From Albidovulum sediminis (lineage in GTDB: Bacteria; Pseudomonadota; Alphaproteobacteria; Rhodobacterales; Rhodobacteraceae): a stretch of 64,000 nucleotides of DNA. Made by a program: the position numbers and the translations under genes. Positions 21,879 to 42,893 of the stretch are shown piece by piece. The stretch is taken from NCBI RefSeq assembly GCF_025380365.1, contig NZ_JAOCQF010000001.1:310001-374000 (forward strand). Reading direction: 5' to 3'. The stretch's first letter is position 1. Each line of letters opens with the position of its first letter. The notes beneath the pieces were generated by a model that ran no database searches, had not been told where the DNA came from, and saw nothing but the letters and a program-made list of their open reading frames with translations.

Positions 21879-22991
21879 TTACCCGCTCGTCTTCCTGAGG
21901 ATCTGCATCGGCTTGGCACTGCCCCGGTTCTCCAGCGCTTCCAGGAACTTCGACAAGGTTCCGGGCCAGCTCGGGGTCGCATCCTGCTCCGGCCAGGCCT
22001 GACGGTAGTCCGAGGGCCTGCGGCCAAAGCACTTGCCGAAGGAAAAGGCAAAGTGGGACAGCGTGTTGAACCCCGAGGCCGTGGCGATCTCGCGCACCGA
22101 CAGATCGGTCGCGATCAAGAGGACCCGCGCGTGTTGCAGCCGCAGGAGCAGGCCGAACTGCACCACCGTGCAGCCGATGCTCGCCTTGAACTGCCGTTCC
22201 AGCTGCCGCTGCGACACCCCGAGATGTTCGGCAATCGCGGGTACGGCCATGGGTTCCGCGATGTTCTTTTCGATCAGATGGATCGCCTCGCGCACCATCG
22301 GGGCAAGGGTTTCCATGCCGCGCCCCATGGTGCGCCGCTGCGGCGCCGTGCCGGGCCGGATCGGGTGATAGAGCATCTGGTCCGCGATCTCGCCGGCCAG
22401 CCGTTCCCCGTGCGCATCACCCACGAGTCGAAGCATCAGGTCGACACCGGCAAGGCCGCCCGAACAGGTCATCATCTGGCCATCCATCGTGAACAGCTGC
22501 TCCGTGACCGTTATTTCGTCAAACTGCTCGCCGAAGCCGGACATCCATGACCAGTGCGTCGTCGCGCGCTTGCCCGCCAGAAGCCCGGCCCGCGCCACGA
22601 GATAGCAGCCGAGCTCGACCGAACAGATGCGCTGGCCGCCCCGCGCCTGACGCCGGATCCAGGCCAGGGTCTGCGGGTTCCGATAGGTCTCGGCGTTCCA
22701 GGAGCCCAGCACGAAGATCGTCTCGTTCCGGTGCACATGTTCGTCCGGCTTCTGCGCACGCACGGTGAACCCGTTCGATGCGGTGATCTCTTCTCCGTCG
22801 AAGGACAGCACCTCCCATCGATAGAGCGGCGACGGAGACAGGTAATTGGCGATCCGCATCACCTCGATCATCGTCATCATCGTGGTCATGTTGAAACGCG
22901 GCACGACCAGAAAGGCGACCCGCGTCACGGGCGCCGCGGGCTGACCGGGGGCAGGGGGCGGGGCTGGCCGGGAAGTGCGTATTTTCGACAT
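21879..22991 (-). CDS. GlxA family transcriptional regulator (CdhR-like)
   Basis: A 370-residue regulator with an N-terminal DJ-1/PfpI-like amidotransferase-fold domain (about 20-185, with [20 protein letters not shown]) and a C-terminal AraC helix-turn-helix pair (about 235-330, with [18 protein letters not shown] and then [17 protein letters not shown]). This architecture is shared by regulators of carnitine (CdhR), glycine betaine (GbdR) and arginine catabolism. It is divergent from a BKACE gene, the family that cleaves dehydrocarnitine in carnitine degradation. It most likely activates the catabolic operon at 23073 and beyond when bound to a betaine-like ligand (inference). Confidence 0.88.
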
Positions 22992-23003
22992 GGAGGCAGC
23001 ATA

Positions 23004-23019
23004 TCAGTCGAAAAACTGA
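23004..23019. promoter_or_regulatory. candidate operator between GlxA-type gene and BKACE gene
   Basis: The inverted repeat TCAGT-N6-ACTGA is in the 81-bp divergent intergenic region, 12 bases from the GlxA-type start and 53 bases from the BKACE start. It is the only clear dyad there and is well placed to be read by the divergent regulator. The arms are short. Confidence 0.35.
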
Positions 23020-23072
23020 CAGGAAATAGCCTTCCGCGCCACAAGATGAAGAAAAACAGGGAGGAGAGGCGC

Positions 23073-23966
23073 ATGAATTTCGAGGTGGTCCTGACCTGTG
23101 CTGTCACCGGGGCCGGGGCGACGACCAACATCAGCCCGCATGTTCCGGTGACGCCCGAGGCAATCGCGCGCGAGGCGATCGAGGCTGCGAAGGCGGGCGC
23201 CTCCTGTGCCCATATCCATGTCCGCGACCCCGAAACCGGGAAGGGGTCGCGCGACCCGGGACTGTTCCGCGAGGTCGTGGACCGGGTGCGCGACAGCGGC
23301 ACCGATGTCGTCATCAACCTGACCGCCGGGATGGGCGGCGACTGGGTGCCTTCGAAGGAGGATTGGGCCATGCCCGGCCCCGGCACCGACATGATCGGCC
23401 CCGACGAACGGCTGGCGCATGTGAAGGACTGTCTGCCGGAGATCTGTTCGCTCGACTGCGGGACGCTGAACTTCGGCAACGACGACACGATCTACATCTC
23501 GACGCCGCCGATCCTGCGCCGCATGGCCGCGCTGACGAAGGAATGGGGCGTCAAGCCCGAGCTTGAGGTCTTCGACCTTGGCCACATCCGTTTCGCCAGG
23601 GCGATGGTGGACGAGGGGCTGATCGCCGCGCCGCCGATGTTCCAGCTGTGCCTTGGCATCCCCTGGGGCGCCGACCAGACGGTCGAGACGATGGCCGCGA
23701 TGAAGGCGCAACTGCCGGCCGGTGCAAGCTGGGCCAGCTTCGGCATCAGCCGGATGCAGATGCCGATGGTCGCCGCCGCCGTGTCGCTGGGCGGCAATGT
23801 CCGTGTCGGGCTCGAGGACAACATCTATCTCTCGAAAGGCGTGCTCGCCACCAATGCCCAGCTTGTCGAACGCGCCCGCACGATCATCGAGGCGATGGGC
23901 GCGCGCGTCCTGACCCCGCAGGAGGCGCGCAACAAGCTGAAGCTGCGCGGCGCGAACGCAGCATGA
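23073..23966 (+). CDS. beta-keto acid cleavage enzyme (BKACE, DUF849)
   Basis: A 297-residue TIM-barrel zinc enzyme that condenses a beta-keto acid with acetyl-CoA to give acetoacetate and a new acyl-CoA. The zinc-binding HIHVRD motif (H47, H49) is at the expected position and the distal ligand is in GLEDNIY (Glu). The length is typical. Known members act on 3-keto-5-aminohexanoate, dehydrocarnitine and similar substrates. The start at 23073 has GGAGGAGAGG just upstream. It begins an operon with a PotABCD-type importer (ATGA overlap with the ATPase gene) and is divergent from a GlxA-type regulator, an arrangement resembling carnitine-degradation loci. Dehydrocarnitine or a related amino-keto acid is the best substrate guess. 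Confidence 0.9.
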
Positions 23967-24967
23967 GCGAGGTCGCCGCCTTGCCGGGGCTGAGGTTGCG
24001 GGCGCTGACCAAGCGCTTCGGAACCTTCACGGCTGCCGAGGACATCGATCTCGACATCCGGCGTGGCGAGTTCCTGACCCTGCTCGGGCCGTCGGGCTCG
24101 GGCAAGACCACGCTTCTGATGATGATCGCGGGGTTTCTCGACATCACCTCGGGCGACATCCTGCTTGACGGCGCATCCATCGCCGGCATGCCGCCCGAGA
24201 AACGCAATTTCGGGATGGTGTTCCAGGGCTACGCGCTGTTCCCGCACATGACGGTGCGCCAGAACATCGCCTACCCCCTCGACGTGCGTCGGCGCCCCCG
24301 GGCCGAGATCGACCGGCGCGTCGACGAGATGCTGGAGCTGGTGCAGCTTCGGGACTTCGGCCACCGCCTGCCACGGCAGTTGTCGGGCGGCCAGCAGCAA
24401 CGCGTCGCGCTGGCCCGTGCACTGTGCTTCGCGCCGCCGGTGCTGCTTCTCGACGAGCCGCTGGGGGCGCTCGACAAGAAGCTGCGCATCGAGGTGCAGG
24501 ACCAGCTCAAGGACATTCACCGCCGGGTCGGCACCACCTTCATCTACGTGACCCATGATCAGGAAGAGGCGCTGTCGATGTCCGACCGCATCGTGATCAT
24601 GCAGAACGGCCGCATCGAGCAGGTGGGCACGCCGCAGGAGCTGTACCAGAGGCCGCGCACCGCGTTCGCGGCCAGCTTTCTGGGCAAGTCGAACTTCCTG
24701 ACCAGGGACGGCACGCTCCATGCGCTCCGACCCGAAAAGATCGAGATCGCGCCGAAAGGGCAGGGCCAGGGGCCGAACATGGTCAGCGGGACCATCCGGG
24801 CCATCACCTACTTCGGTTCGATCCTGAAGTACGACGTTGCGGTGCCGGGCATGGACGAGATCGAGGTCGACGTCGACGCCTGGCGCGGCGGCGCGGCCAT
24901 GGCCGAGGGCGCCGAGGTGGACCTCAGCTGGTCCGACACGGCGGCGGTGCCGCTGGAAAGGGACTGA
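23963..24967 (+). CDS. ABC transporter ATP-binding protein (PotA type)
   Basis: A 334-residue ATPase with Walker [10 protein letters not shown], signature LSGGQQQR, Walker [12 protein letters not shown], and a C-terminal TOBE domain (about 265-330). It belongs to the spermidine/putrescine (PotA) and related betaine or iron importers. ATGA overlap with the BKACE gene shows one transcript. It energises the two permeases at 26253-27904. Confidence 0.92.
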
Positions 24968-25045
24968 CGACCCGTAGCGGGGAGGGCGGAACAGACCCCG
25001 CGAACGACCGGGCGGCAAGCCCGATCAACATGGAGGAGACCTGGA

Positions 25046-26155
25046 ATGCACGACAAGCAATTCATGCGTGAAGCCGCACAGGAGGGTGCAAAGGCGTTCA
25101 AGGAAGGCCGGATGGACCGGCGCACCTTCCTCGTGCTCTGCGGCATGGCCGGCATCGCCACGCAGGCCGTGATCGCCGGTGACGCGGAAGCGGCGGCGAA
25201 CGAGATCGTGATGTGGAACTGGGGCGGCCAGTCCGAGGAATGCCACGGCAAGGCCATCGGCGATCCCTTCACCGCTGAAACCGGGATGCCGCTGAAGTTC
25301 GACACGTCGGGTCCGCTTCAGGGCAAGATCAAGGAAATGGTCGACAGCGGCAACGTCACGGCGGACGTCTGCGACGCCGACCTTTTCGACGCCGTGGCGC
25401 TTGGCCCCTCGGGGCATCTCGAACCGATCGACTACGACATCGTCTCGAAGGACCGGACGCTGCCGCAATACGCGCTGGAGCACGGCGTTTCGATCATTCT
25501 CTACGGCTATGCCTTCGTCTACGATACCGAAGCCTACGGGGACAATCCGCCGAAAAACTGGGCCGACTTCTTCGACACCGCGAAGTTTCCCGGCAAGCGG
25601 TCGCTCTACAAATGGGCGAACGGGGCGCTTGAAGGCGCGCTTCTGGCCGACGGCGTGGCCAAGGATGCGCTCTACCCCCTCGACATGGACCGGGCGCTCG
25701 CCAAGATCAAGTCGATCAAGGACGACAGCCTCTACTGGGGCTCGGGCTCCGAGGCGCATTCGATGGTGGTCAACGGCGAGGTGTCCATGGGCATGATCTG
25801 GCAGAACCGCGGCCGCAACATCGAGATGGACACCGACGGCCGCTACAAGCTGGTGATGAACGAGGCGCTTGCCATGCCGGGCGCCTATATCGTGCCGAAG
25901 GGCAACCCCGCCGGGCGAGAGGCGGTGATGAAGTTCATCGCCACCGCGCAGTCCGTTCCCTCGCAGCTCACGCTTCTCGGTTGCCTCGGCATGACGCCGT
26001 CGAACCCCGAAGCCTTCGCCCAGATCCCCGAGGATCAGCAACCCTATGCCATCACCTCGGCGATGAACATCGACGGGATCGTCTACAACGATCCGACCTG
26101 GTGGGGCGAGAACGGCGGCGACGCCGTCAACGCCTTCCTCGAGGCGATCTCCTGA
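25046..26155 (+). CDS. extracellular substrate-binding protein (PotD/PotF type)
   Basis: A 369-residue periplasmic binding protein of the polyamine-type SBP family 1. The N-terminus has 22 charged residues, then MDRRTFLVLCGMAG and a small-residue stretch, i.e. a twin-arginine-like signal. The mature part starts near ANEIVMWNWGGQ and contains FVYDTEAYGDNPPKNWADFFD and WQNRGRN. Aromatic residues of the expected pocket (several Trp/Tyr) would suit a cationic amine. It is encoded between the ATPase and permease genes. Polyamine uptake is the family default; a betaine-like ligand is suggested by the neighbouring carnitine-type enzymes. Confidence 0.88.
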   Translation: MHDKQFMREAAQEGAKAFKEGRMDRRTFLVLCGMAGIATQAVIAGDAEAAANEIVMWNWGGQSEECHGKAIGDPFTAETGMPLKFDTSGPLQGKIKEMVDSGNVTADVCDADLFDAVALGPSGHLEPIDYDIVSKDRTLPQYALEHGVSIILYGYAFVYDTEAYGDNPPKNWADFFDTAKFPGKRSLYKWANGALEGALLADGVAKDALYPLDMDRALAKIKSIKDDSLYWGSGSEAHSMVVNGEVSMGMIWQNRGRNIEMDTDGRYKLVMNEALAMPGAYIVPKGNPAGREAVMKFIATAQSVPSQLTLLGCLGMTPSNPEAFAQIPEDQQPYAITSAMNIDGIVYNDPTWWGENGGDAVNAFLEAIS

Positions 26156-26163
26156 TCCTCGAT

Positions 26164-26192
26164 CCCGGCGGCGCCGCTCCCGCGCCGCCGGG
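26164..26192 (+). terminator. intercistronic hairpin after the binding-protein gene
   Basis: A perfect 11-bp stem (CCCGGCGGCGC / GCGCCGCCGGG) with a 7-base loop starts nine bases after the binding-protein stop and lies within the operon. Such structures usually protect or partly terminate the upstream message, so that binding protein is made in excess over permeases. Confidence 0.6.
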
Positions 26193-26252
26193 TCTGTCAC
26201 CTGGCAGGGCCTTCGGGCCCCGCCCCTTTTCCACGCGAAGGAATCGCCCCGG

Positions 26253-27104
26253 ATGAACGGCTCGCCCCTCACACGCTTCGGTACCGGCTGGCTTCTGGTC
26301 CTGCCGTTCCTTGCGCTGGTGGTGGCGCTTTTCCTCGGCCCCATCGCCAACATCCTGTGGCTGAGCGTGACCGACCCCGAGCCGGGCCTTGGCAACTACG
26401 CCGCGCTCGTCACCTCGGACAACCTCGCCGGCATTCTCTGGACGACCATCCGCATCTGCGTAATCACCACCGCCTTCTCGGTGGTCCTCGGCTATTCCAT
26501 CGCCTACGCCATGGTCCATGTCGCACAGGGCAGCCGCAACCGGATGCTCGGCCTTCTCCTCGTCTCGTTCTGGATCTCGGTCCTGGTGCGCACGTTCAGC
26601 TGGCTCATGCTTCTCGGCCGCAAGGGGCTGGTCAACGAGACGCTTCTGGGTATCGGCCTCATCGCCCAGCCCATCGAATTCATGCGCAACGAGCTTGGCG
26701 TGCTGATCGGCATGGTGCATTACATGATCCCCTACGCCGTCCTGCCGCTTCTGGCCTCGATGCAGAACATCGACACGCGGGTGCTGGCGGCATCGCGCAG
26801 CCTGGGCGCGACCGGCACCCAGACATTCTGGCGCATCTACCTGCCGCTGACGAAACCCGGCCTCGTGGCGGCGGCGCTTCTGGTCTTCATCCTGTCGCTC
26901 GGCTTTTACGTGACGCCTGCGATCCTGGGCGGCGGCAAGGTGCTTATGGTCGCCGAATACATCTCGGTCCAGATTCTCGTGACGCTCCGCTGGGGCACGG
27001 CGGCGATGCTGGCGGCGCTGATGCTCTTCGGGGTTCTTGCCCTTCTCTTCGTCATGTCGCGCTTCATGAAGCTTTCGACCGTCTTCGGGGGGGCCAAGGC
27101 ATGA
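26253..27104 (+). CDS. ABC transporter permease (PotB type)
   Basis: A 283-residue inner-membrane permease with six helices. Its EAA-like coupling loop, AASRSLGATGTQTFWRIYLP (about 178-197), is of the PotB/spermidine class. It overlaps the next permease by ATGA at 27101-27104. It forms the importer channel with the PotC-type partner. Confidence 0.9.
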   Translation: MNGSPLTRFGTGWLLVLPFLALVVALFLGPIANILWLSVTDPEPGLGNYAALVTSDNLAGILWTTIRICVITTAFSVVLGYSIAYAMVHVAQGSRNRMLGLLLVSFWISVLVRTFSWLMLLGRKGLVNETLLGIGLIAQPIEFMRNELGVLIGMVHYMIPYAVLPLLASMQNIDTRVLAASRSLGATGTQTFWRIYLPLTKPGLVAAALLVFILSLGFYVTPAILGGGKVLMVAEYISVQILVTLRWGTAAMLAALMLFGVLALLFVMSRFMKLSTVFGGAKA

Positions 27105-27904
27105 AACCGGGCCTGCCGGCCATCCTGAACCGTTACGGGGCGTGGCTCATCCTGCTTTTCCTGGTCGCGCCGGCGCTGGTCGCCATTCCGGTTTCGCTGA
27201 CACCCAAGGGCTTTCTTTCGATGCCGAAGGGCGACTATTCCGCCAGGCATTTCGAAAAGCTCTTCACCTCCGAAGAGTGGATGTCGAGCTTCTGGCAAAG
27301 CACCGTGATCGGCCTTTCCGTCGCGGTGCTGGCAACCGCGCTCGGCACGTTCTGCGCCATCGGTCTGTGGCGGGTGGCGTCGAGATGGGGCGAGGTGGTG
27401 CGCGCCTTCCTGCTTCTTCCGCTGGTCGTGCCGCCGATCATTTCTGCAATGGCCTTCTACCGGCTGATGGTGCCCCTGGGCCTGATCGACACCTATGCCG
27501 GGCTGATCCTCGCCCACACGGTCCTGGCCGCGCCGCTGGTCCTGATCACGGTATCGGCCTCGCTCGCCGGGTTCGATCCGCGGCTTGAGCAGGCTTCGCG
27601 CAATCTGGGCGCCTCGAACTGGACGACGATGCGGCGGGTGATCCTGCCGTCGATCCGGCCGGGCGTCCTCGCAGGGGCGATCTTTGCCTTCATCGCGTCC
27701 TGGGACGAGATCGTCGTGACGCTGTTCCTGTCCAAGTTCAGCGTCTACACGCTGCCCCGTCGCATGTGGAACGGCATCCGCGAGAACACCGACCCCACGG
27801 TCGCGGCCGCCGCCGTGGTGCTGATCGCCGTCACCCTGATCTTCTTCCTCATCCAGGCGCTGAACGCGCGCCGCAGCCGCAATTCCGCTTCCGGAGAGAC
27901 CTGA
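27101..27904 (+). CDS. ABC transporter permease (PotC type)
   Basis: A 267-residue permease with six membrane helices and the coupling loop QASRNLGASNWTTMRRVILP (about 164-183); the late segment WDEIVVTLFLSKFSVYTLPRR is characteristic of PotC. Its stop overlaps the acyl-CoA dehydrogenase start (TGATG), so transport and catabolism are co-expressed. Confidence 0.9.
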   Translation: MKPGLPAILNRYGAWLILLFLVAPALVAIPVSLTPKGFLSMPKGDYSARHFEKLFTSEEWMSSFWQSTVIGLSVAVLATALGTFCAIGLWRVASRWGEVVRAFLLLPLVVPPIISAMAFYRLMVPLGLIDTYAGLILAHTVLAAPLVLITVSASLAGFDPRLEQASRNLGASNWTTMRRVILPSIRPGVLAGAIFAFIASWDEIVVTLFLSKFSVYTLPRRMWNGIRENTDPTVAAAAVVLIAVTLIFFLIQALNARRSRNSASGET

Positions 27905-29064
27905 TGACCGTAGTTCACTCGCACGAGGACGAGCTTCTGCGCGCCTCTGTCCGTGCCTTCTTCGAGCGTGAGGTGATCCCGCACGAAGACCTGGTCGACC
28001 GCCTGGGCGAAGTGCCTGAGGAGATCGGGCGCGAGATCGAGGCGAAGTCGAAGGAACTTGGCCTCTTCGCCGCCAACCTGCCGGAACGGGTCGGCGGGGG
28101 GGGGCTCAACTATACCCAGATGTCGATCATAGAGCGGGAATTCGGGCGCACCAGCCACGCGCTGCATTCCTGGGTCGCCCGGCCGACGGAACTGCTTCTG
28201 GCCTGCGAGGGCGATCAGGTCGGCACCTACCTCATGCCCTGCGTCACGGGCGAAAAGCGCGAGTTGTTCGGGCTGACCGAGCCGGGCGCGGGATCGGATG
28301 CGATGGGGATGCAGACCCGCGCGCGCAAGGACGGCGACGACTGGATCCTGGACGGGATGAAGCATTTCATCTCGGCCCCGACGATGGCCGATTTCGCCAT
28401 CGTCTTCGCCGTCACCGGCATGGACGAAACCAAGCGCGGGCCGCGCAAACGCATCACCGCCTTCCTCGTCGATCGCGACAGGCCCGGCGTGACCTTCCGT
28501 GAGGGCACCAAGTGCGTCTCGAACCGTGGCTACAAGACTTATGAGCTGATCTTCGACCGCGTGCGCCTCGGCCCCGGCCAGGTGTTGGGCGAAGAGGGCA
28601 GGGGCTTTGAACTGGCGGGCAAGTGGCTGGGCATGGGGCGGGTCTGGATCGGCGCGACCTGCTGCGGCAAGGCGGAACGGCTGATCGAGATGGCGACCGA
28701 CTGGTGCGCCACCCGCAAGCAGTTCGGCCAGCCGATCGGCCAGTTCCAGGCCACGGGCTTCCGTCTGGCCGACATGGCGATCGGGCTTCGCACCGGCGAT
28801 CTGCTGGTCGCCGACACGGTGCGCCGCGCGGACCAGGGGATCATGACCGACAGCGACGCCGCAATGGTCAAGGTCTATTGCTCCGAGATGCTGAACCGGG
28901 TCGCCGACGACACCGTGCAGATCTACGGCGGCATGGGGTTGATGGAGGAATTGCCCGTCCAGCGGATGTGGCGCGACGCGCGGATCGAACGCATCTGGGA
29001 TGGAACCTCCGAGATCCAGCGCCACATCATCACCCGCGCGATCCTGAGGCCGCTCGGAGCATGA
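27904..29064 (+). CDS. acyl-CoA dehydrogenase family protein
   Basis: A 386-residue FAD enzyme with the complete acyl-CoA dehydrogenase fold: N-terminal helices, the FAD/substrate segment ELFGLTEPGAGSDAMGMQT, and the C-terminal QIYGGMGLMEELPVQRMWRD. The usual C-terminal catalytic Glu (as in YEGT) is replaced by Asp in IWDGTSEIQ (D366), which may alter substrate or base position. It is coupled to the permease upstream and to the acyl-CoA synthetase downstream (ATGA). In the context of CaiB- and CaiD-like genes a role like crotonobetainyl-CoA reductase (CaiA) or its reverse, butyrobetainyl-CoA oxidation, is possible; a generic short-chain acyl-CoA substrate cannot be excluded. Confidence 0.88.
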   Translation: MTVVHSHEDELLRASVRAFFEREVIPHEDLVDRLGEVPEEIGREIEAKSKELGLFAANLPERVGGGGLNYTQMSIIEREFGRTSHALHSWVARPTELLLACEGDQVGTYLMPCVTGEKRELFGLTEPGAGSDAMGMQTRARKDGDDWILDGMKHFISAPTMADFAIVFAVTGMDETKRGPRKRITAFLVDRDRPGVTFREGTKCVSNRGYKTYELIFDRVRLGPGQVLGEEGRGFELAGKWLGMGRVWIGATCCGKAERLIEMATDWCATRKQFGQPIGQFQATGFRLADMAIGLRTGDLLVADTVRRADQGIMTDSDAAMVKVYCSEMLNRVADDTVQIYGGMGLMEELPVQRMWRDARIERIWDGTSEIQRHIITRAILRPLGA

Positions 29065-32296: not shown

Positions 32297-32319
32297 GGTG
32301 ATGCGGTGTGCGGGGCCAC

Positions 32320-32928: not shown

Positions 32929-32933
32929 CTCCC

Positions 32934-35018: not shown

Positions 35019-35827
35019 GCGCGCGCCCCCAGATGCCGGTCAAGGAAGGTGACCAGCGGCCGGTTCAACGCCGGCGGGTCTTCGGCCAGCGCCATGTGGC
35101 GAAGGCCGGGCAGGATCAGCGCCTCGGCACCCGCGATCTCGGCCGCGATGGCGCGGGTCATCTCGGGGCCATTGCCGTAATCTTCGTCCCCGGTGATCAC
35201 CAGCGTGGGCACGGCGATCGGCGGGTTCGGCGCAACGACCTCGTCGACGCCTTCGGCGAGGATGCGGTAGATCGACGGATAGACCACCGGATCGTTGGCC
35301 ATGACCCAGGACCGCACAAGATCCATCATCTCGGGATTGGCCGCGCGGAAGCTATCGGTGAACCAGCGCACCAGCGCCGCCTCGACCGTTGCCTGTGGCC
35401 CCTCCGTCCTGGCCTGCCCGACGCGGGCAACGACGGCCGCCTGCGCAGCGGGCGTGCGGCGATGGGGCGAATGCAGGATGCCAAGCGCGCTCACCCGCGC
35501 CGGGTGATCCTGTGCGAAGCGCCGGGCGATCATGCCGCCGAGTGAGAAACCGACAAGCGCCGCCCGCGCGATCCCGAGGTGATCCAGCAGCGCCGCCAGA
35601 TGGTCGGAGAGCGTCCGCAGCGTGGGAGAGGGCGGCGGCGCGGCGCTTTGGCCGTGGCCGGGAAGATCGTAGGTCAGGACCCGGTAGCGCGCCGCCAGGT
35701 CCGGCACGAGCCATTGCCAGCAGGCCCGGTTGAGCCCGAGGCCGTGGATCAGCACCACCACCGGCGCGCCCTCCGGTCCGGTCAGGTCATGGGCGGTGCC
35801 GTCAGGCGCGCGCATGGCCGCGTTCAT
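35015..35827 (-). CDS. alpha/beta hydrolase
   Basis: A 270-residue alpha/beta-hydrolase. The oxyanion HGLGLNRACW is near residue 30, the nucleophile elbow is GFSLGG (Ser near 97), the acid is in ITGDEDYGNG, and the catalytic His is in GLRHMALAEDP. Its size and motifs resemble RutD and the amide hydrolases of pyridine-ring catabolism. The gene overlaps RidA upstream and the CoA-transferase/flavin reductase downstream (ATGA both sides), so it acts in the same pathway, probably on a ring-opened or enamide intermediate (inference). Confidence 0.88.
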   Translation of the reverse strand: MNAAMRAPDGTAHDLTGPEGAPVVVLIHGLGLNRACWQWLVPDLAARYRVLTYDLPGHGQSAAPPPSPTLRTLSDHLAALLDHLGIARAALVGFSLGGMIARRFAQDHPARVSALGILHSPHRRTPAAQAAVVARVGQARTEGPQATVEAALVRWFTDSFRAANPEMMDLVRSWVMANDPVVYPSIYRILAEGVDEVVAPNPPIAVPTLVITGDEDYGNGPEMTRAIAAEIAGAEALILPGLRHMALAEDPPALNRPLVTFLDRHLGARA

Positions 35828-36219
35828 GGCCGGGCCACGGGCTTGTGGGCGATGACCTCGACCTCGACCTTCACGTCGACAAGCAGATCGGAAACCACGG
35901 CAGACCGGGTCGGTGGATCGTTCGGGAAGTATTCGCCATAAACCGCGTTGAAGCCCGGAAAATCGGCGCGATCGACAAGCCAGACCATGGCCTTGACCAC
36001 ATCATCCCGGCTGCATCCGGCCAGCGCCAGCGTCGCGGTGATCTCGTCAAGCACCGCGCGCGTCTGGTCCTCGATCGTCCCCGAGGTCATCACCGCCCCG
36101 TCCCTCATCGGCACCTGCCCGGTCAGGAAAACGAAATCTCCCGCGCGTATCGCCCGGCTGAGCGAAAGGCGGCGTCCGTTGATCACGATCGGTTCCCCGA
36201 TGACCTGCTTTTCCGGCAT
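35824..36219 (-). CDS. RidA family protein (RutC-like)
   Basis: A 131-residue RidA/YjgF/UK114 protein. It includes FVFLTGQVPMRDG, then EDQTRAVLDEITATLALAGCSRDDVVKAMVWL, split across the conserved subunit-interface regions, and the C-terminal PPTRSAVV with the family Arg. Classic RidA deaminates reactive enamines/imines; RutC acts on aminoacrylate peracid products after an LLM oxygenase. The start at 36219 has GGGGGG just upstream; an ORF extension to 36273 is not family-like. First gene of the leftward operon, divergent from an aldehyde dehydrogenase across a region with strong palindromes. Confidence 0.88.
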   Translation of the reverse strand: MPEKQVIGEPIVINGRRLSLSRAIRAGDFVFLTGQVPMRDGAVMTSGTIEDQTRAVLDEITATLALAGCSRDDVVKAMVWLVDRADFPGFNAVYGEYFPNDPPTRSAVVSDLLVDVKVEVEVIAHKPVARP

Positions 36220-36258
36220 CCGCGCCCCCCTTTTCCCAATCCGTGCCATCTGCGGCCG

Positions 36259-36298
36259 TGCGAATATACGCAATTTTCGCCATGGCCTGGCGAAAATT
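36259..36298. promoter_or_regulatory. double palindromic operator between RidA and aldehyde dehydrogenase operons
   Basis: Two adjacent inverted repeats occupy the divergent promoter region: TGCG-AATATA-CGCA at 36259-36272, and an 11-bp-arm perfect repeat AATTTTCGCCA-N5-TGGCGAAAATT at 36272-36298. The second is far beyond chance for a GC-rich genome and should be a regulator binding site controlling both operons. The half-site TGGCGAAAA recurs upstream of the LLM monooxygenase operon (40008-40016). The cognate regulator is not identified. Confidence 0.7.
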
Positions 36299-36361
36299 CG
36301 GAGTTCATCTGTCCCGGCGCGGTCAGTATGGATGGAACCGGACCTGGGGAGGAAACGCGCG

Positions 36362-37843
36362 ATGGCCGACGTGAAACGCTACAAGATGCTGATCGACGGC
36401 GAGTGGGTCGATGCCTCGGACGGCGGCACCTTCGACAGCATCAACCCCGCCACGGGGCAGGTCTGGTCGCGCGTGCCCGAGGCTACGGCGGCGGATGTCG
36501 ACCGCGCGGTGCGCGCCGCCGACCGCGCCTTCAGCTCCGGGCCCTGGGCCTCGATGCTGCCCAGCCAGCGCGGCAAATGCCTGCGCAGGCTGGGCGATCT
36601 CCTGGCCGAGAGGTCGGAGCAGCTGGGCCGGACGGAATCGATCGACACCGGCAAGATGCTGAAGGAAACCCGCTGGCAGGCGAAGTACATCGCCGAGTTC
36701 TTCCATTTCTACGCGGGCTGCGCCGACAAGATCGCGGGCGAGACGCTGCCCATCGACAAGCCCGACCTGTTCGTCTTCACGCGGCGCGAACCCCTGGGCG
36801 TGGTGGCCGCCGTGGTGCCCTGGAACTCGCAGCTGTTCCTGGTGGCGGTGAAGATCGGCCCCGCGCTGGCGGCGGGCAATACCGTGGTGCTGAAGGCGTC
36901 GGAGCAGGCCTCGGCGGCGATGCTGGAGTTCGGTGAGCTGATCGAAGAGGCGGGCTTTCCCCCCGGTGTGGTCAACATCGTCTCGGGCCACGGCGATCCG
37001 TGCGGCAAGGCGCTGACCTCGCACTCGCTGGTCGCGCGCATCTCCTTCACCGGCGGCCCGAACGCCGCCCGGCATGTCCTTTACAATTCGGCCGAGAACT
37101 TTGCCGAGGTCTCGCTGGAACTTGGCGGCAAGTCGCCCTTCATCGTCTTCGAGGACGCGGACATCGAAAGCGCGGTGAACGGATCGATCGCCGGGATCTT
37201 CGGGGCGACGGGGCAAAGCTGCGTGGCGGGGTCGCGGCTCTATCTGCACGAAGACATCGCCGACGAATTCCTCGAACGGATGACCGCGATTGCGCGCACC
37301 ATCCTGATCGGCGACCCCTTGGCCGAGGAAACCCAGATGGGGCCGCTTTGCACCGCGGGCCAGCTTGACCACATCGAACGCGAGGTCGCCCGCGCGCTCA
37401 GCGAGGGCGCGCGCCTTGTGACCGGCGGCAAGCGGCCTGCGGGGCTCCCGGGCACCTATTACGAGCCCACGATCCTCGAATGTCCGCGCCAGGACCTGCA
37501 CATCGTCGATACCGAGCTTTTCGGCCCGGTGCTGGCGGTGCAGCGGTTCCGCACCGAGGAAGAGGTGATCGGGCTGGCCAATGACACCAGGCACGGGCTG
37601 GCCGCCGGCATCTTCACCCGCTCGGGCGCGCGGCAGATGCGGATGGCCAAGGCGATCCGTGCCGGCATCGTCTGGATCAACACCTACCGCGTCGTGTCGC
37701 CCATCGCCGAGTTTGGCGGGGTCAAGGGATCGGGCTACGGCCGCGAAAGCGGCTTTCAGGCGATGTGGGACTATACGCGCCCGAAGACCGTCTGGGTGAA
37801 CACCTCCGACACGCCGATGGCCAATCCCTTCGTCATGCGGTAA
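36362..37843 (+). CDS. aldehyde dehydrogenase family protein
   Basis: A 493-residue NAD(P)-dependent aldehyde dehydrogenase with all landmarks: VVPWNSQLFLVAVKIGPALA, ISFTGG, catalytic Glu in ELGGKSP, catalytic Cys in GATGQSCVAGSRLYL, and EEVIGLANDTRHGLAAGIF. The start at 36362 has GGGGAGG nine bases before it; upstream in-frame codons lie in the operator. Rhodobacterial relatives include betaine-aldehyde-like and pyridine-ring-pathway dehydrogenases. It is transcribed divergently from the RidA/hydrolase/flavin-reductase operon and probably oxidises the aldehyde made by the monooxygenase step (inference). Confidence 0.92.
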   Translation: MADVKRYKMLIDGEWVDASDGGTFDSINPATGQVWSRVPEATAADVDRAVRAADRAFSSGPWASMLPSQRGKCLRRLGDLLAERSEQLGRTESIDTGKMLKETRWQAKYIAEFFHFYAGCADKIAGETLPIDKPDLFVFTRREPLGVVAAVVPWNSQLFLVAVKIGPALAAGNTVVLKASEQASAAMLEFGELIEEAGFPPGVVNIVSGHGDPCGKALTSHSLVARISFTGGPNAARHVLYNSAENFAEVSLELGGKSPFIVFEDADIESAVNGSIAGIFGATGQSCVAGSRLYLHEDIADEFLERMTAIARTILIGDPLAEETQMGPLCTAGQLDHIEREVARALSEGARLVTGGKRPAGLPGTYYEPTILECPRQDLHIVDTELFGPVLAVQRFRTEEEVIGLANDTRHGLAAGIFTRSGARQMRMAKAIRAGIVWINTYRVVSPIAEFGGVKGSGYGRESGFQAMWDYTRPKTVWVNTSDTPMANPFVMR

Positions 37844-37914
37844 GGGCGTCGTGCGCCCTGCGGTCTGCCGCCGGGCTGCCGGCACGCGCCTGCAGTCGGC
37901 ATTTCGCGCGAAGG

Positions 37915-38820
37915 TCAGGCGGCGCCGGGTGCCGCCCGTGTTCCCGCGCGTCCCCGGTGGCGGTCTTCGCGCGGGGATTGACCGAACTTGCGCGAATAGT
38001 CACGGCTGAACTGTGCGGGGCTTTCGTAGCCGACATCGAAGGCGACCGAGGAAATCGCATCGCTGCTTTCCATGATAAGCCGGCGCGCCTCGAGAAGGCG
38101 AACATCCTTCTGGTACTGGCCGGGCGTCTGGCCCGTCACTGCCTTGAAATGCGCGTGGAATGACGACTTGCTCATGCCGGCATGTGCCGCCAGAACTGAA
38201 ACCGACAGCGGTTCGTTGATGGAAGAACGGATCGACGCAATCGCCCTGGCGAGGTGGTTCGAGGGGTCGTCGCGGCGAAGGAAACGCCGCAGGATGGCCC
38301 CTTGCGCGGACACGAGCAGACGGGCGTGTATCTCGCGCAGAAGGATCGGACCAAGAAGCGCTGCGGCCGCGTCGCCACGGACAAGCTCAAGGAACCGGGC
38401 GACGGCGCCAGTCAGGCCGGCGTCCGCCGGGTAAGATCTCAGCGCCGCCATATCCTGCTGTCCGTCATCGAAGTCCGGAACAAGGTCATAGAAGCTGCGC
38501 AACAGGCCAAGATCGATGGGAAGCACGAAGGCGGCATAGGGTTTGTCCGGCGATGCTTCGGTGATGCGTGACAGGACCGGCAGGTCATGGCTGACGATGA
38601 TGGCGTGCCCGGCAGGGCAATGAACGCGGTGGGTGCCTGCCATGACCTCCTTCGCCCCCTGAATGACCATGCACAGGAGCGGGCGGTAAAGCGACCCCTC
38701 GATGGCGGAAGGATGACTGCGCCAGAGGATCGCGGCATCCCCCAACCCGAGCTTGGTAACGCCATCCGTCGCCGCGGCGTCCACAAGATCGCCCGCCATC
38801 CGAGAGAGTTCCGGTTCCAC
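37915..38820 (-). CDS. AraC family transcriptional regulator
   Basis: A 301-residue regulator with an AraC_N (YesN-type) ligand domain (about 25-175, with YRPLLCMVIQGAKEVMAG) and a C-terminal AraC HTH (about 190-285, with LAAHAGMSKSSFHAHFKAVT and then VAFDVGYESPAQFSRDYSRKFG). I chose the GTG at 38820 because GGAGG lies 5 bases upstream and the length matches the family; the frame is open to an ATG at 38937. It is divergent from the aldo/keto reductase gene, a common pair in which the regulator controls the reductase. Confidence 0.85.
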   Translation of the reverse strand: MEPELSRMAGDLVDAAATDGVTKLGLGDAAILWRSHPSAIEGSLYRPLLCMVIQGAKEVMAGTHRVHCPAGHAIIVSHDLPVLSRITEASPDKPYAAFVLPIDLGLLRSFYDLVPDFDDGQQDMAALRSYPADAGLTGAVARFLELVRGDAAAALLGPILLREIHARLLVSAQGAILRRFLRRDDPSNHLARAIASIRSSINEPLSVSVLAAHAGMSKSSFHAHFKAVTGQTPGQYQKDVRLLEARRLIMESSDAISSVAFDVGYESPAQFSRDYSRKFGQSPREDRHRGRAGTRAAPGAA

Positions 38821-39008
38821 AACGCCTCCATCCTTCTGCGCCGGGCAAGGGGTAGCACAGCCTGCGGTCAACTTGGCATTCTTTCCGTTGGTATGGAGGA
38901 ATTGACAAGTGTTCTCTCTCAATGAGCAAGAAACCATCTGTCTTGTCAGCTAAAGATCATCCTGAAAGTCAAATACCCTGGGCATCTGGGTGCTAGCCGG
39001 AGATCGAA

Positions 39009-39932
39009 ATGACTGACCATTCCACAAGGAAAAGCAAGACAGCTGCCGGCATTCCTCCGGTCGGATTCGGGACGTACCTGATTGCAGACGATGATGCGCC
39101 GGCTGCCGTCGCCGCCGCGATCGCGGCCGGCTATCGCCACATCGACACCGCTGCCGGCTATCAAAACGAGGCGGGGGTAGGCAGAGGCATCCGCGAGGGG
39201 ATCGAAGATGCCGGCCTTGACCGCTCGGACATCTTCGTGACAACCAAGCTCTGGCCCGGGAATCCTGCCTGGGGCGACAAGCCGAAAGGTTACGGCGAGA
39301 CCGTCGCGGCCTTCGCAGGTTCACTGGACGCACTCGGGCTCGACTACGTCGATCTCTACCTCATCCACGCACCCTCAGGCGGGTCCGAGCGCGTGAACGA
39401 ATGGCGGGCACTGGTCGATCTGAAAGCGCAGGGCAAGGCGCGGTCGATCGGGGTAAGCAATTACACCGAGGCACATGTCGAGGAGATCCGCGCCGCGGGC
39501 TTGCCGTTGCCGGAGTACAATCAGATCGAGCTGCATCCCTGGTCGCAGAAGCCGCAGCTTCTGGAGTTCATGGCGAAAAACGGGATCGCGCCTATCGCCT
39601 ATAGCTCGCTCGTGCCCCTTTCCACGTGGCGTGCCGCACCCGGTCAAGGCAGCGCGAAGACCAGCGAGATGCGCGCCGCGGGCGACGAAGCCGGTTCGCC
39701 CTTCAAGGCGATGGCCGTCAAGTACGGTGTGACGGAGGCGCAGGTGCTGCTGCGCTGGGGTGTGCAGAAAGGCTTTGCGGTCCTGCCCAAGAGCCTGAAT
39801 CCCGTGCGGATGCGCCAGAACATCGACCTCTTCGGATTCGAGATAGATGCGGAAGACATGGCGCTGCTCGCAACCATGGATCGCGGCGACGGCGTTGCAT
39901 GGGCGACCGGGGATCCGCGTTTCATGGGGTAG
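39009..39932 (+). CDS. aldo/keto reductase
   Basis: A 307-residue NADPH-dependent (alpha/beta)8 reductase: PPVGFGTYLI, YRHIDTAAGYQNEAGVGRGI with the catalytic Asp and Tyr, a Lys in FVTTKLWPGN, a substrate loop with the catalytic-His position YLIHAP, SIGVSNYTEAHVEEI, and NQIELHPWSQK. It would reduce an aldehyde or ketone. It is divergent from an AraC regulator and is separated by 168 bp from the LLM operon, so it may or may not belong to the same pathway. Confidence 0.88.
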   Translation: MTDHSTRKSKTAAGIPPVGFGTYLIADDDAPAAVAAAIAAGYRHIDTAAGYQNEAGVGRGIREGIEDAGLDRSDIFVTTKLWPGNPAWGDKPKGYGETVAAFAGSLDALGLDYVDLYLIHAPSGGSERVNEWRALVDLKAQGKARSIGVSNYTEAHVEEIRAAGLPLPEYNQIELHPWSQKPQLLEFMAKNGIAPIAYSSLVPLSTWRAAPGQGSAKTSEMRAAGDEAGSPFKAMAVKYGVTEAQVLLRWGVQKGFAVLPKSLNPVRMRQNIDLFGFEIDAEDMALLATMDRGDGVAWATGDPRFMG

Positions 39933-40007
39933 GTCCGGCTGACCCGCCGAAGCGAGGCGAAGCTGCCCTGACAGACAAGGCCGGGGTCTCACCACGGACG
40001 AAAACGT

Positions 40008-40043
40008 TGGCGAAAAACCGCTTTGGGTGTCGAAATTCCGACA
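40008..40043. promoter_or_regulatory. candidate operator upstream of the LLM monooxygenase operon
   Basis: TGGCGAAAA at 40008-40016 repeats the half-site of the palindrome at 36272-36298. It is followed by the inverted repeat TGTCG-N6-CGACA at 40028-40043. Both lie within 95 bp of the monooxygenase start. The shared half-site suggests that the operons are co-regulated, though nine bases can recur by chance. Confidence 0.42.
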
Positions 40044-40100
40044 AACACCGGCCGCGAAGCGGCGAACATGGAGGTCAAAAGCGATCCGGGGAGGGATGAG

Positions 40101-41135
40101 ATGAAATTTCAGCTGGCGATCAACCTGGAGCGCTTGGACGACACGCTCGACATGCGGGACGTCGCGCGCCACACGCTTGAAATGGTGCAGATGGCGGAGG
40201 AGGGCGGCTTTACCATCGCCTGGGCGGCCGAACACCACGCGCTGGAGATGACCATCGCGCCCAACCCCTTCTCGATCCTGACCTGGTGGGCCGAGAATAC
40301 CAGCCGCATCCGCCTGGGCACGGCTGTCGCCGTCGCCGCCTACTGGCATCCGATCAAGCTGGCGGGCGAGGCGGCCTTCTTCGACCTGATCTCGGGCGGG
40401 CGGCTCGAATTCGGCATCGGTTCGGGCGCCTACCAGCGCGAGTTCGACCGCATGCATCCTGGCCTGAAGCAATCGGACGCCTGGCGCCACATGCAGGAAA
40501 TGCTGCCCGCCGTGCAGGCGCTCTGGCAGGGCGACTATGAGCACAACGGCCAGTTCTGGTCCTTCCCCAAGGCCACGTCGGTGCCAAAGCCCCTGCAGAA
40601 GGAGGTGCCGATCTGGGTCGCCGCGCGCGCGCCGATGACCTACGACTACGCGGTCAGGAACGGCTGCAACATCCAGTCCTGGCCGCTCACGCGCGGGATG
40701 GACGAGGCCGAGACCTACATGGCTCGCATGGCCGAGGCGATGGCCGCCAACCCCGGCAAGAAGCGCCCCACGATGGCGATGATGCGCCACACCGCCCTTT
40801 ACGACCGCAAGGAAGACTGGATGGTGCCGGTGCGCGCGGCGCAGCGCCAGCTGTCGCAGTTCGAGAACCTGTTCAAGAACATGGGCGACGTGGAAAACGG
40901 CTTTCCGCGCTCGATCCCCTTTGACCAGCTCGGCAACCGCGCCGAATACGACCCGGAGATGCTGACGCGCAACCTGATGTTCGGCACGCCCGACGAGGTG
41001 ATCGCCAAGCTGAAGCAGTACGAGGCGATCGGCGTCGACGAATTCATCTACTACGCCTCGCTCGGCCTTGGCCACAGGGAGCAGAAACGCTCGATGGAGC
41101 TGTTCTGCAAGGAAGTCATCCCCGCGTTCTCCTGA
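40101..41135 (+). CDS. LLM class flavin-dependent monooxygenase
   Basis: A 344-residue bacterial-luciferase-like TIM barrel: FTIAWAAEHHAL (about 38-49), RIRLGTAVAVAAYWHPIKLA, and RLEFGIGSGAYQREFDRM. Such enzymes use reduced FMN delivered by a separate reductase and O2 to oxygenate C-N or C-S substrates; RutA (pyrimidine ring) and trigonelline or pyridine oxygenases belong here. The ATG at 40101 follows GAGGGATGAG; an in-frame extension to 40023 is unlikely. It leads an operon with a CaiD-like crotonase and a carnitine-dehydrogenase-like gene. The only flavin reductase in view is the domain fused to the CoA-transferase at 32934-35018. Confidence 0.9.
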   Translation: MKFQLAINLERLDDTLDMRDVARHTLEMVQMAEEGGFTIAWAAEHHALEMTIAPNPFSILTWWAENTSRIRLGTAVAVAAYWHPIKLAGEAAFFDLISGGRLEFGIGSGAYQREFDRMHPGLKQSDAWRHMQEMLPAVQALWQGDYEHNGQFWSFPKATSVPKPLQKEVPIWVAARAPMTYDYAVRNGCNIQSWPLTRGMDEAETYMARMAEAMAANPGKKRPTMAMMRHTALYDRKEDWMVPVRAAQRQLSQFENLFKNMGDVENGFPRSIPFDQLGNRAEYDPEMLTRNLMFGTPDEVIAKLKQYEAIGVDEFIYYASLGLGHREQKRSMELFCKEVIPAFS

Positions 41136-41143
41136 GGGTTCCG

Positions 41144-41941
41144 ATGTCTCTTGTCGAAACGGCGCGGCGCGGCCGCGTGCTGGAAGTCACGCTGAACAAG
41201 CCCAAGGTCAACGCCATCGACATCGAGATGAGCCGGCAGATGGGCCGGGCCTTCGCCGAGTTGCGCGACGACCCGGAGCTTTGGTGCGCGATCCTGACCG
41301 GCGCGGGGAAGAAGATCTTTTCCGCCGGCTGGGACCTGAAGGCGCTGAACGCGGGCGAGATGGAGCTCGATAACTGGTGGCAGGAGGATTACGGGATCGG
41401 CGGCTTTGCCGGGCTGACCGAGAACTGGCGGCTGAACAAGCCGGTGATCTGCGCGCTGAACGGCCTGGCCATCGGCGGCGGCTTTGAAATCGCGCTGTCC
41501 TGCGACCTGATCATCGCCGCCGAGCACGTGGAATTCGGCCTGCCGGAGATGCCGCTGGGCATCGTGCCCGACGCGGGTGCGCTGCAACGCCTGCCGCGCC
41601 GCATCCCCCACAACATCGCGATGGAGATGTTCCTTCTGGGCCGCCGCATGACCGCGCAGGAGGCCGCGCACTACGGCCTTGTCAACAAGGTCGTGCCGAA
41701 AGGGCAGGAAATGGATGCGGCCCGCGAATGGGCCGACCGGATTGCCGGTTCGGCGCCGCTGGCGATGCAAAGCGTCAAGGAGGTGCAGCGCGCAATCGAA
41801 TGCCGGCCGCTGGAACAGGCCTTCGCCCATATGCGCGAAGGCGACCTGCCGACCTACCGCAGGATGCTGACTTCGGAGGACGCCAGGGAAGGCGTGGCGG
41901 CCTTCGTCGAGCGGCGCGATCCCGTGTTCAAGGGGCGATAA
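41144..41941 (+). CDS. crotonase, carnitinyl-CoA dehydratase (CaiD)-like
   Basis: A 265-residue enoyl-CoA hydratase/isomerase that resembles CaiD along its whole length: AILTGAGKKIFSAGWDLKAL (oxyanion/CoA region), GGFAGLTENWRLNKPVICALNG, GLPEMPLGIVPDAG (Glu of the active site), and a C-terminal FVERRDPVFKGR like the CaiD ending. It would add or remove water at a beta-position of an acyl-CoA. An insertion DNWWQEDYGI near residue 80 differs from CaiD. It lies 8 bp after the monooxygenase gene and 1 bp before the dehydrogenase gene, so all three are one transcript. Confidence 0.88.
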   Translation: MSLVETARRGRVLEVTLNKPKVNAIDIEMSRQMGRAFAELRDDPELWCAILTGAGKKIFSAGWDLKALNAGEMELDNWWQEDYGIGGFAGLTENWRLNKPVICALNGLAIGGGFEIALSCDLIIAAEHVEFGLPEMPLGIVPDAGALQRLPRRIPHNIAMEMFLLGRRMTAQEAAHYGLVNKVVPKGQEMDAAREWADRIAGSAPLAMQSVKEVQRAIECRPLEQAFAHMREGDLPTYRRMLTSEDAREGVAAFVERRDPVFKGR

Positions 41942-41942
41942 G

Positions 41943-42893
41943 ATGTATCCCGATCCTTCCTCTGTCACCCGCGTCACCACGCTTGGCGCGGGTCCCATCG
42001 GCGGGGGCTGGGCCGCGCATTTCCTGGCGCGCGGCTATGACGTGACCGCCTATATCCACGCCGAAGGCGAACGCGCGGCGCTGATGTCGGTCATCGACAC
42101 CGCCTGGATCAGCCTTGAGGCGCTGGGGCTGGCCCCCGGTGCCTCGCGCGACCGGCTGAGGGTCACGACCGATCTCGATGCGGCGGTGCGGGACGCGCAG
42201 TTCATCCAGGAAAGCGCGCCCGAGCGGCTGGAGCTGAAGCAGGCGCTCTACAAGCGTTTGGGCGAGGTCGCGCCGAGGGGCTGTGTCATCGCCTCCTCGA
42301 CCTCGGGGCTGATGATGACGGACATCCAGAAGGACTGCCCGACGCCCGAACGCACCGTCATCGGCCACCCGTTCAACCCGCCCTACCTTCTGCCGCTGGT
42401 CGAGATCGTCGGCGGCCGGAAAACCGATCCGGCAGCCGTGCGGTGGGCGGAGGATTTCTACCGGGTTGCGGGCAAGGCGCCGCTGGTGATGAAGAAGGAA
42501 ATCCCCGGCTTCGTCGCCACGCGGCTGCAGGAGGCGCTCTGGCGCGAGGCCCTGCACATGGTGGCGAACGGCGAGGCGACGCCAGAAGACATCGACAACG
42601 CGCTGATGAACGGCCCGGCGCCGCGCATGGCGGTGCAAGGCCAGTGCATGGCCTTCCACGTCGCCTGCGGAGAGGGTGGCATGGCCACCAACCTCGACCA
42701 GTTCGGCCCGGCGCTGAAATGGCCCTGGACGCGGCTCGAGGCGCCCGAACTGACGCGGGAACTGCGCGACCGCATGGTCGACGGCTGCAACGCCATCGCC
42801 GCGGGGCGACCTTTCGAGGAGATGGCGGCAGAGCGCGACCGGGAGATCGTCGCCGTCCTCAACGCGATCCGCGCGGCGCGGCGCAGGACGTGA
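41943..42893 (+). CDS. 3-hydroxyacyl-CoA dehydrogenase family, carnitine 3-dehydrogenase-like
   Basis: A 316-residue NAD-dependent dehydrogenase with an N-terminal Rossmann domain (TLGAGPIGGGWAAHFLARGY) and a 3HCDH C-terminal domain. Segments FIQESAPERLELK, SSTSGL, VIGHPFNPPYLLPLVEIVGG and KEIPGFVATRLQEALWREALH match the carnitine 3-dehydrogenase/CdhA group rather than ordinary FadB-type enzymes. It would oxidise a beta-hydroxy group to the beta-keto acid that BKACE (23073-23966) can cleave. It is the last gene of the LLM operon. L-gulonate dehydrogenase-type enzymes are the closest alternative. Confidence 0.87.
   Translation: MYPDPSSVTRVTTLGAGPIGGGWAAHFLARGYDVTAYIHAEGERAALMSVIDTAWISLEALGLAPGASRDRLRVTTDLDAAVRDAQFIQESAPERLELKQALYKRLGEVAPRGCVIASSTSGLMMTDIQKDCPTPERTVIGHPFNPPYLLPLVEIVGGRKTDPAAVRWAEDFYRVAGKAPLVMKKEIPGFVATRLQEALWREALHMVANGEATPEDIDNALMNGPAPRMAVQGQCMAFHVACGEGGMATNLDQFGPALKWPWTRLEAPELTRELRDRMVDGCNAIAAGRPFEEMAAERDREIVAVLNAIRAARRRT

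Follow-up and report, generated by a model that had tools for sequence, protein, structure and literature searches.

The described systems closest to the gene cluster considered here are the breakdown of gamma-butyrobetaine and carnitine by Cai and Cdh enzymes and the beta-keto acid cleavage enzyme (BKACE), the trigonelline (Tgn) pathway of Acinetobacter baylyi, and the Rut pathway of pyrimidine degradation. The cluster occupies positions 21879–42893 of a 64,000-nucleotide stretch of DNA from Albidovulum sediminis (positions 310001–374000 of contig NZ_JAOCQF010000001.1; GC content 67%; host genome 4.29 Mb), and this whole stretch is referred to as the window. With carnitine breakdown, the cluster shares a synthetase, an acyl-coenzyme A (CoA) dehydrogenase, a hydratase, a CoA-transferase, a 3-hydroxyacid dehydrogenase, BKACE, and a GlxA-type regulator, a set termed the CoA arm for its enzymes; unlike the 499-residue carnitine enzyme, however, the 3-hydroxyacid dehydrogenase has 316 residues and lacks the second half. 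Similar to the Tgn pathway, the cluster holds together a flavin reductase, a luciferase-like flavin monooxygenase (LLM), an aldehyde dehydrogenase (ALDH), an alpha/beta hydrolase, and a DUF1185 protein, termed the ring arm, but it has one ALDH only and adds RidA, a CoA-transferase fusion, the CoA arm, and the GlxA regulator. The LLM oxygenase, flavin reductase, RidA, and alpha/beta hydrolase are also kinds found in the Rut pathway, which was rejected on model scores: RutC, RutD, and RutF reach 54, 78, and 89 bits, with cut-offs at 169, 238.5, and 255. No RutB-like gene is among those identified in the cluster.

PMC8269262 (Heal et al.) describes the opening of the trigonelline ring by TgnA/TgnB, and PMC7913881 regards the DUF1185 protein of a 7-hydroxycoumarin operon as homologous to TgnF, the A. 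baylyi protein that stimulates TgnE. Because a DUF1185 protein is thus counted as kin to TgnF and the Rut models fall far below their cut-offs, trigonelline is the better comparison; of the two likenesses that an initial annotation had offered for the oxidative genes, Rut or trigonelline, the former is thus set aside.

The seventeen genes of the cluster constitute one hybrid unit that is conserved among various bacteria of water and soil. We consider it evenly balanced whether they specify a single pathway, probably controlled by the GlxA regulator, for the uptake and breakdown of a betaine-like compound whose N-heteroaromatic head bears a carboxylic side chain. The evidence comprises the gene content, its conservation, a gene fusion, and an operator common to both divergent promoters. 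A pathway for a betaine-like or N-heterocyclic compound had been suggested in the initial annotation and is supported, with the compound class drawn from homology and transporter type only. Among the papers listed in a literature search, none describes this gene combination; the primary trigonelline and homarine papers were outside its reach, so the term "undescribed" is used provisionally.

Gene Organization

Genes were called by Pfam and NCBIfam profile scans of the open frames of the window, in which all genes named in the initial annotation are present. The gene of the GlxA/CdhR/GbdR-type AraC regulator (21879–22991, minus strand), composed of DJ-1/PfpI and helix-turn-helix domains, has GbdR as its best NCBIfam match (243.9 bits, below the cut-off of 480) and is divergent from a plus-strand operon (23073–32296). 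This operon encodes BKACE (23073–23966; 338 bits), an ATP-binding cassette (ABC) importer made up of a PotA/PhnT-like ATPase (23963–24967), a solute-binding protein (25046–26155), and PotB-like (26253–27104) and PotC-like (27101–27904) permeases, an acyl-CoA dehydrogenase (27901–29064), an ADP-forming acyl-CoA synthetase with both halves in one chain (29061–31160), and a serine hydrolase of the beta-lactamase fold (31157–32296), whose nearest solved relative is NylB.

The ALDH gene (plus strand, approximately 36362 to 37843, inside open reading frame 35948–37843; 541 bits) is divergent from a minus-strand operon that runs from 36219 to 32320 and encodes RidA, an enamine/imine deaminase (35824–36219), an enol-lactonase-like alpha/beta hydrolase in the place of TgnE (35015–35827), a fusion of a family III CoA-transferase and a flavin reductase with a C-terminal extension (32934–35018), and the DUF1185/AA_synth protein of the TgnF family (32320–32937). 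A third group on the plus strand (40101–42893), downstream of a pair of AraC and aldo-keto reductase genes, consists of LLM (40101–41135), a crotonase nearest to the crotonobetainyl-CoA hydratase CaiD (41144–41941; 311 bits, cut-off 500), and the 3-hydroxyacid dehydrogenase, nearest to L-carnitine dehydrogenase (41943–42893; 321 bits, cut-off 414). The starts of BKACE (~23073), LLM (~40101), and RidA (~36219) were set by eye from the sequence, and the opposite-strand open reading frame over ALDH (36323–37885) gave no family in the profile scans.

Conservation of the Cluster as One Unit

The window proteins were compared by tblastn with 88 loci, 28 of them in family genomes and 60 on contigs of named genomes; the later tally comprises 98 loci. 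The order common to many of them is DUF1185-fusion-hydrolase-RidA, ALDH-LLM-CaiD-CdhA, GlxA, and BKACE-ABC-acyl-CoA dehydrogenase-synthetase. The cluster forms one block in Rhodobacteraceae and has a different gene order in Hyphomicrobiales, and two copies are found on plasmids, such that it may be mobile; a viral origin was rejected, as a search of viral contigs for dehydrogenase relatives found none. In the window copy the arrangement has changed: the BKACE operon has moved, and the AraC/aldo-keto reductase pair has been inserted between ALDH and LLM. This pair, an AraC_N regulator (37915–38937, minus strand) and an aldo-keto reductase (39009–39932, plus strand), is unmatched in all 98 loci and was dropped as a member of the cluster, in which it is probably an intruder that arose by insertion or rearrangement.

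With identity thresholds of our own choosing for the two arms, LLM is accompanied by both arms in 25 of the 98 loci, by the ring arm only in 35, by the CoA arm only in 10, and by neither in 12; the remainder have both arms without LLM (4), the ring arm only (5), or none of these (7). Six of the ten loci with LLM and the CoA arm only (L094, L101, and L109–L112) belong to genomes in which DUF1185 lies elsewhere with more ring-arm genes around it, and the other four (L086, L128, L135, and L137) end at contig ends. Of 198 genomes sampled from the family, 7 carry the dehydrogenase (E ≤ 1e-90) and 22 carry LLM (E ≤ 1e-130), and all 7 dehydrogenase carriers have LLM (Fisher p of 8e-8, or 7e-7 without the window's own genome, with relatedness ignored). 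The nesting runs in one direction: 15 of the 22 LLM genomes lack the dehydrogenase, and the reverse is seen in none of the 7. The window-type binding protein (at least 82% identity) is present in 4 of the 198 genomes, all within the 7 dehydrogenase carriers, and at least two of five CoA-arm genes accompany it in 20 of 20 loci. These surveys were made with LLM and the dehydrogenase, as one with the fusion protein matched 188 of the 198 genomes and was uninformative past the top matches, any CaiB matching. Co-occurrence of the LLM, fusion, and BKACE operons in other genomes, which the initial annotation had set as one half of its test for a single pathway, holds across genera and two orders, with the fusion gene and mixed operons. 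Co-induction, the other half, is only predicted, from the operator described below.

Hyphomicrobiales have an unfused CoA-transferase, and a different small flavin reductase is seen in two of four loci. The plasmid of Parasedimentitalea marina carries the complete set plus a carboxymuconolactone-decarboxylase-like gene, and that of Aminobacter sp. SR38 has an unfused reductase, no CoA-transferase in the operon, and no serine hydrolase behind the synthetase. Directly after the synthetase in the latter is an acetoacetate-CoA ligase (L170:26192–28108), which likely consumes what BKACE releases. L144, L145, and L146 have the serine hydrolase behind the synthetase, whereas it is absent from that place in L147, L148, and L150. 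Among further neighbors of LLM, a GbcA-like Rieske oxygenase gene lies between ALDH and LLM of the same clade in L059 and L126 and before LLM in L129, where the locus is cut; in Acidimicrobiales loci the neighbors include Rieske, TauD, or PhyH genes. No single compound is indicated by the loci of Actinomycetota and Gammaproteobacteria in which Rieske, TauD, PhyH, or thiamine diphosphate (TPP)-enzyme genes are neighbors.

The arms might also represent two separate pathways, for two often co-occurring compounds, under one regulator. The 35 loci in which LLM is joined by two or more further ring-arm genes but by no CoA arm are consistent with this arrangement, as is Defluviimonas, in which the set is divided over two loci. 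The Defluviimonas division, however, separates LLM-CaiD-CdhA from DUF1185-fusion-hydrolase/ALDH and thus does not follow the two chemistries, and both the fusion and the mixed operon LLM-CaiD-CdhA combine the arms, which makes two pathways very improbable.

The CoA-Transferase/Flavin Reductase Fusion

The CaiB-like protein and the flavin reductase, listed as two proteins in the initial annotation, are both present but are encoded by one gene. The 694-residue product matches CoA_transf_3 at residues 5–378 (414 bits) and Flavin_Reduct at residues 402–545 (139 bits), and the fusion protein is predicted from these domains to join the two chemistries. A CoA-transferase and a flavin reductase share one frame in 23 of the 98 loci; the CoA-transferase is unfused in 5, and a reductase match without a CoA-transferase match is seen in 28. 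The reductase with its long C-terminal extension resembles SMa0793 of S. meliloti (PDB 3rh7; 43% identity), and the extension is missing in three fusions (L106, L127, and L130). An AlphaFold model of the flavin reductase half (pLDDT 78, pTM 0.50) yielded mainly the relative 3rh7 and leaves the extension unexplained. The best match of the CaiB half is succinyl-CoA:mesaconate CoA-transferase (408.7 bits against a cut-off of 700).

An Operator Common to Both Divergent Promoters

Both divergent promoters contain the operator TTTTCGnC-N7/N17-GnCGAAAA, as TTTTCGCC-N7-GGCGAAAA between RidA and ALDH (36274–36296) and as TTTTCGAC-N17-GTCGAAAA between GlxA and BKACE (22982–23014), with no strand assigned to either; if the start at 22991 is used, the start codon of the GlxA gene overlaps the latter. 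The two spacings differ by approximately one helical turn. At spacings of 6–18, the pattern has two matches in the window, both at these promoters, with 0.00 expected from 100 dinucleotide shuffles. Genome-wide there are six matches, four of them outside these promoters, and the backward control has none. The presence of a specific operator in both promoters predicts that the two operons are co-induced, and GlxA, from the position of its gene, is presumably the protein that binds it.

Among relatives, window included, the operator is found within 2 mismatches of 14 at spacing 7 in 36 of 52 promoters between RidA or hydrolase and ALDH, and at spacing 17 in 13 of 24 GlxA|BKACE promoters; spacing 8 in the former (14/52) and spacing 18 in the latter (5/24) are likewise within two mismatches. 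One RidA|ALDH sequence was counted twice, since L060/L107 and L121/L168 are the same places, leaving 51 distinct promoters of the 52 and 35 distinct matches of the 36. Shuffles of these promoters (single-base, 20 per set, ignoring relatedness) gave at most one match. As the operator was first read in the RidA|ALDH promoter of the window, the same promoter in relatives serves as a test of conservation and GlxA|BKACE as the more independent test. All four Hyphomicrobiales RidA|ALDH promoters contain the operator with one mismatch each. In the window, where LLM is no longer behind ALDH, two direct half-sites (GACGAAAA and GGCGAAAA; 39997–40016, no strand assigned) lie 12 bases apart upstream of LLM. 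An inverted half-site pair is seen upstream of LLM in L094 and a single half-site in L101, and no half-site is found within 350 bases ahead of LLM in L109–L112.

Comparison of the Ring Arm with Tgn-Like Operons

Five-gene operons of the order DUF1185-hydrolase-flavin reductase-LLM-ALDH are found on pSymA of S. meliloti, in Acinetobacter venetianus, and in Leisingera (L177–L179); behind the pSymA operon lie NIPSNAP, ABC genes, and a gene for succinate-semialdehyde dehydrogenase. In the LLM tree, a separate supported branch is formed by the LLMs of comparable operons from four family genomes (L078–L081). The ring arm of the cluster is, judged by homology, apparently Tgn-like in kind and probably acts on a different substrate. 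Two further DUF1185 observations concern other loci. At ~2082 kb of the same genome (L176), two more DUF1185 genes stand in tandem near an ABC importer, with no match to other ring-arm genes within the 20 kb examined, and on pACMV1 of Acidiphilium multivorum (L180) an operon of the five-gene type has an IS110 transposase at the expected place of LLM.

Given its ring-arm gene content, the cluster could serve the breakdown of trigonelline or homarine, with the CoA genes as accessories. One genome (G043), however, has both this cluster (L055) and a five-gene Tgn-like operon (L080), and another (G036) has the cluster (L054) and genes of the ALDH-LLM-DUF1185-hydrolase kind (L075); to our knowledge, neither pathway requires BKACE. 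TgnA/TgnB is moreover, according to PMC8269262, unlikely to act on homarine. We regard this assignment as unlikely.

The CoA Arm, the Importer, and Carnitine Breakdown

BKACE, the 3-hydroxyacid dehydrogenase, and the CdhR-like regulator occur together in the cluster, as in the carnitine/gamma-butyrobetaine pathway, and the best matches of the hydratase, dehydrogenase, and regulator are carnitine or betaine models. The substrate could therefore be plain gamma-butyrobetaine or crotonobetaine, with LLM and ALDH cutting the C–N bond of a carnitine-type intermediate. In further agreement, 95 of the 122 BKACE positions that are invariant in the cluster have the residue of carnitine BKACE, a comparison that did not settle the substrate, and the binding protein of L062, one of three marine loci (with L127 and L130) that lack the window-type importer and have a different ABC system next to the synthetase, is an OpuAC protein of the glycine-betaine type. 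Every carnitine-model score, however, is below its cut-off (320.9 < 414, 268.1 < 592, 311.3 < 500, 125.1 < 413, and 159.9 < 540), and such a route offers no obvious function for DUF1185, RidA, or the lactonase-like hydrolase. The genome also has a canonical carnitine operon elsewhere (L142:9250–11663, ~819–822 kb), with a 499-residue carnitine 3-dehydrogenase that scores 785.7 bits against a cut-off of 592 and an adjoining BKACE that is 54% identical to that of the window. The interpretation of the cluster as a plain carnitine operon was rejected on this account; the substrate is probably not carnitine or gamma-butyrobetaine, and cleavage of a carnitine-type intermediate is quite unlikely.

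The solute-binding protein is kin to GABA (gamma-aminobutyric acid)-binding proteins of the Atu4243/Pf622 kind, as judged by profiles and alignment. Compared by eye from the alignment with the eight GABA-site residues listed in the iGABASnFR2 paper, it keeps both Trp residues and the Arg, has Ser in place of Thr, Ile in place of Phe100, Tyr at 102, and Met in place of Tyr264, and has Gly in place of the amine-binding Asp. All eight residues are identical in 17 of 17 cluster binding proteins, window included; the pocket thus departs from the GABA-binding kind in the loss of Asp, with Arg retained. Such a pocket suggests that the ligand may be a carboxylated compound with a cationic or aromatic head lacking an amine hydrogen. 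A betaine-like substrate would also accord with the different ABC system behind the synthetase in L062, L127, and L130, which has the OpuAC-type binding protein in L062.

Proposed Pathway and Order of the Arms

In the single pathway proposed here, the ABC importer would take up the substrate, the ADP-forming synthetase would form its CoA ester, and the acyl-CoA dehydrogenase and the CaiD-like hydratase would convert this ester to a 3-hydroxyacyl-CoA. The CaiB half of the fusion would then move CoA off, the 3-hydroxyacid dehydrogenase would yield a 3-keto acid, and BKACE would cleave this acid with acetyl-CoA to acetoacetate and a CoA ester two carbons shorter, for which either the serine hydrolase or the alpha/beta hydrolase may act as thioesterase. 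The LLM oxygenase, supplied by the fused flavin reductase, would next open the ring carboxylate that remains, and ALDH, the alpha/beta hydrolase together with DUF1185, and RidA would convert the ring-opened product, yielding an amine and a central metabolite. Tgn enzymes handle the ring-opened product of trigonelline in much the same way.

We favor side-chain shortening first and ring opening second, since the nesting of dehydrogenase carriers within LLM carriers fits a CoA arm that is an upstream, optional extension. The same single pathway could run in the reverse order, with the Tgn-like arm opening the ring of the imported betaine and the released acid being activated by CaiB or the synthetase and finished by the CoA arm. 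The best match of the CaiB half would suit a dicarboxylate from ring opening, and genes for MaoC and a CoA-ester lyase accompany a CaiB relative (58%) in a Tistrella operon and a CoA-transferase in the Aminobacter operon that adjoins the cluster. The LLMs with and without a CoA arm, moreover, reach 58–86% identity to the window LLM, such that both kinds may catalyze one and the same ring step. The absence of the dehydrogenase from most LLM genomes, never the converse, and the association of the window-type importer with CoA-arm genes argue against the reverse order, which we consider possible but rather unlikely.

Several observations weigh against the proposed pathway or its order. No abundant natural compound known to us matches the proposed structure exactly, and the dicarboxylate type of the CoA-transferase suits the reverse order. 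Four of 29 both-arm loci (L058, L062, L131, and L170) have no CoA-transferase match, although the genome of L062 has one on another contig (L063), and the proposed CoA transfer is dispensable. An ABC importer of this family also accompanies the S. meliloti operon (binding protein 34%, ATPase 58%), so that the importer is a less certain mark of the CoA arm, although the S. meliloti binding protein retains the Asp. In 19 loci, CoA-arm genes are present and the window-type binding protein is missing; contig or locus ends cut several of them. The loci with LLM and neither arm, some of which are on cut contigs, show that LLM by itself is no proof of a ring arm, and the 13 changes of CoA-arm label needed on the LLM tree (shuffled mean 26.9) indicate that the arm moves in and out. 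The window LLM is 38–42% identical to those of the three five-gene operons, such that the ring opened may be that of a compound other than trigonelline, perhaps one that is no pyridinium. The operator is outside the two-mismatch limit in 16 of the 52 RidA-or-hydrolase|ALDH promoters, including those of Ruegeria, Planktomarina, and Roseovarius loci, and in 11 of the 24 GlxA|BKACE promoters, where 6 of the 11 are regions of 48–92 bases, cut at tblastn match ends and possibly without room for the site. Finally, DUF1185 is not confined to N-heterocycles: PMC7913881 places one in the 7-hydroxycoumarin operon, where a stimulating effect was not observable.

Surrounding Genes

Outside the cluster, a heavy-metal P-type ATPase gene is found at 17347–19833, and a minus-strand group at 43038–47162 encodes, by Pfam, an ArsR-like/low-molecular-weight phosphatase fusion, glyceraldehyde-3-phosphate dehydrogenase (GAPDH), a major facilitator superfamily (MFS) protein, and an SBF-family transporter, which resembles an arsenic-resistance operon. 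No tRNA or Rfam elements were found in the window.

Implications

The cluster may represent a widespread, undescribed two-stage route in which a heteroaromatic betaine first has its side chain shortened by CoA chemistry of the carnitine style and then has its ring opened by a flavin system of the Tgn type, the stages being linked by a bifunctional CoA-transferase/flavin reductase polypeptide and governed by one GlxA operator, an interpretation that we offer tentatively, as having slightly less than an even chance. If it is correct, DUF1185, whose role is so far only that of a proposed hydrolase helper (PMC7913881), would gain another well-defined pathway context. The binding protein with its invariant pocket, the regulator with its defined operator, and the fusion enzyme would provide handles on the route. 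An unrecognized betaine would then be common enough in water and soil for at least two bacterial orders to keep an importer devoted to it, and the cluster would constitute a conserved nutrient route for a betaine possibly overlooked in metabolite surveys.

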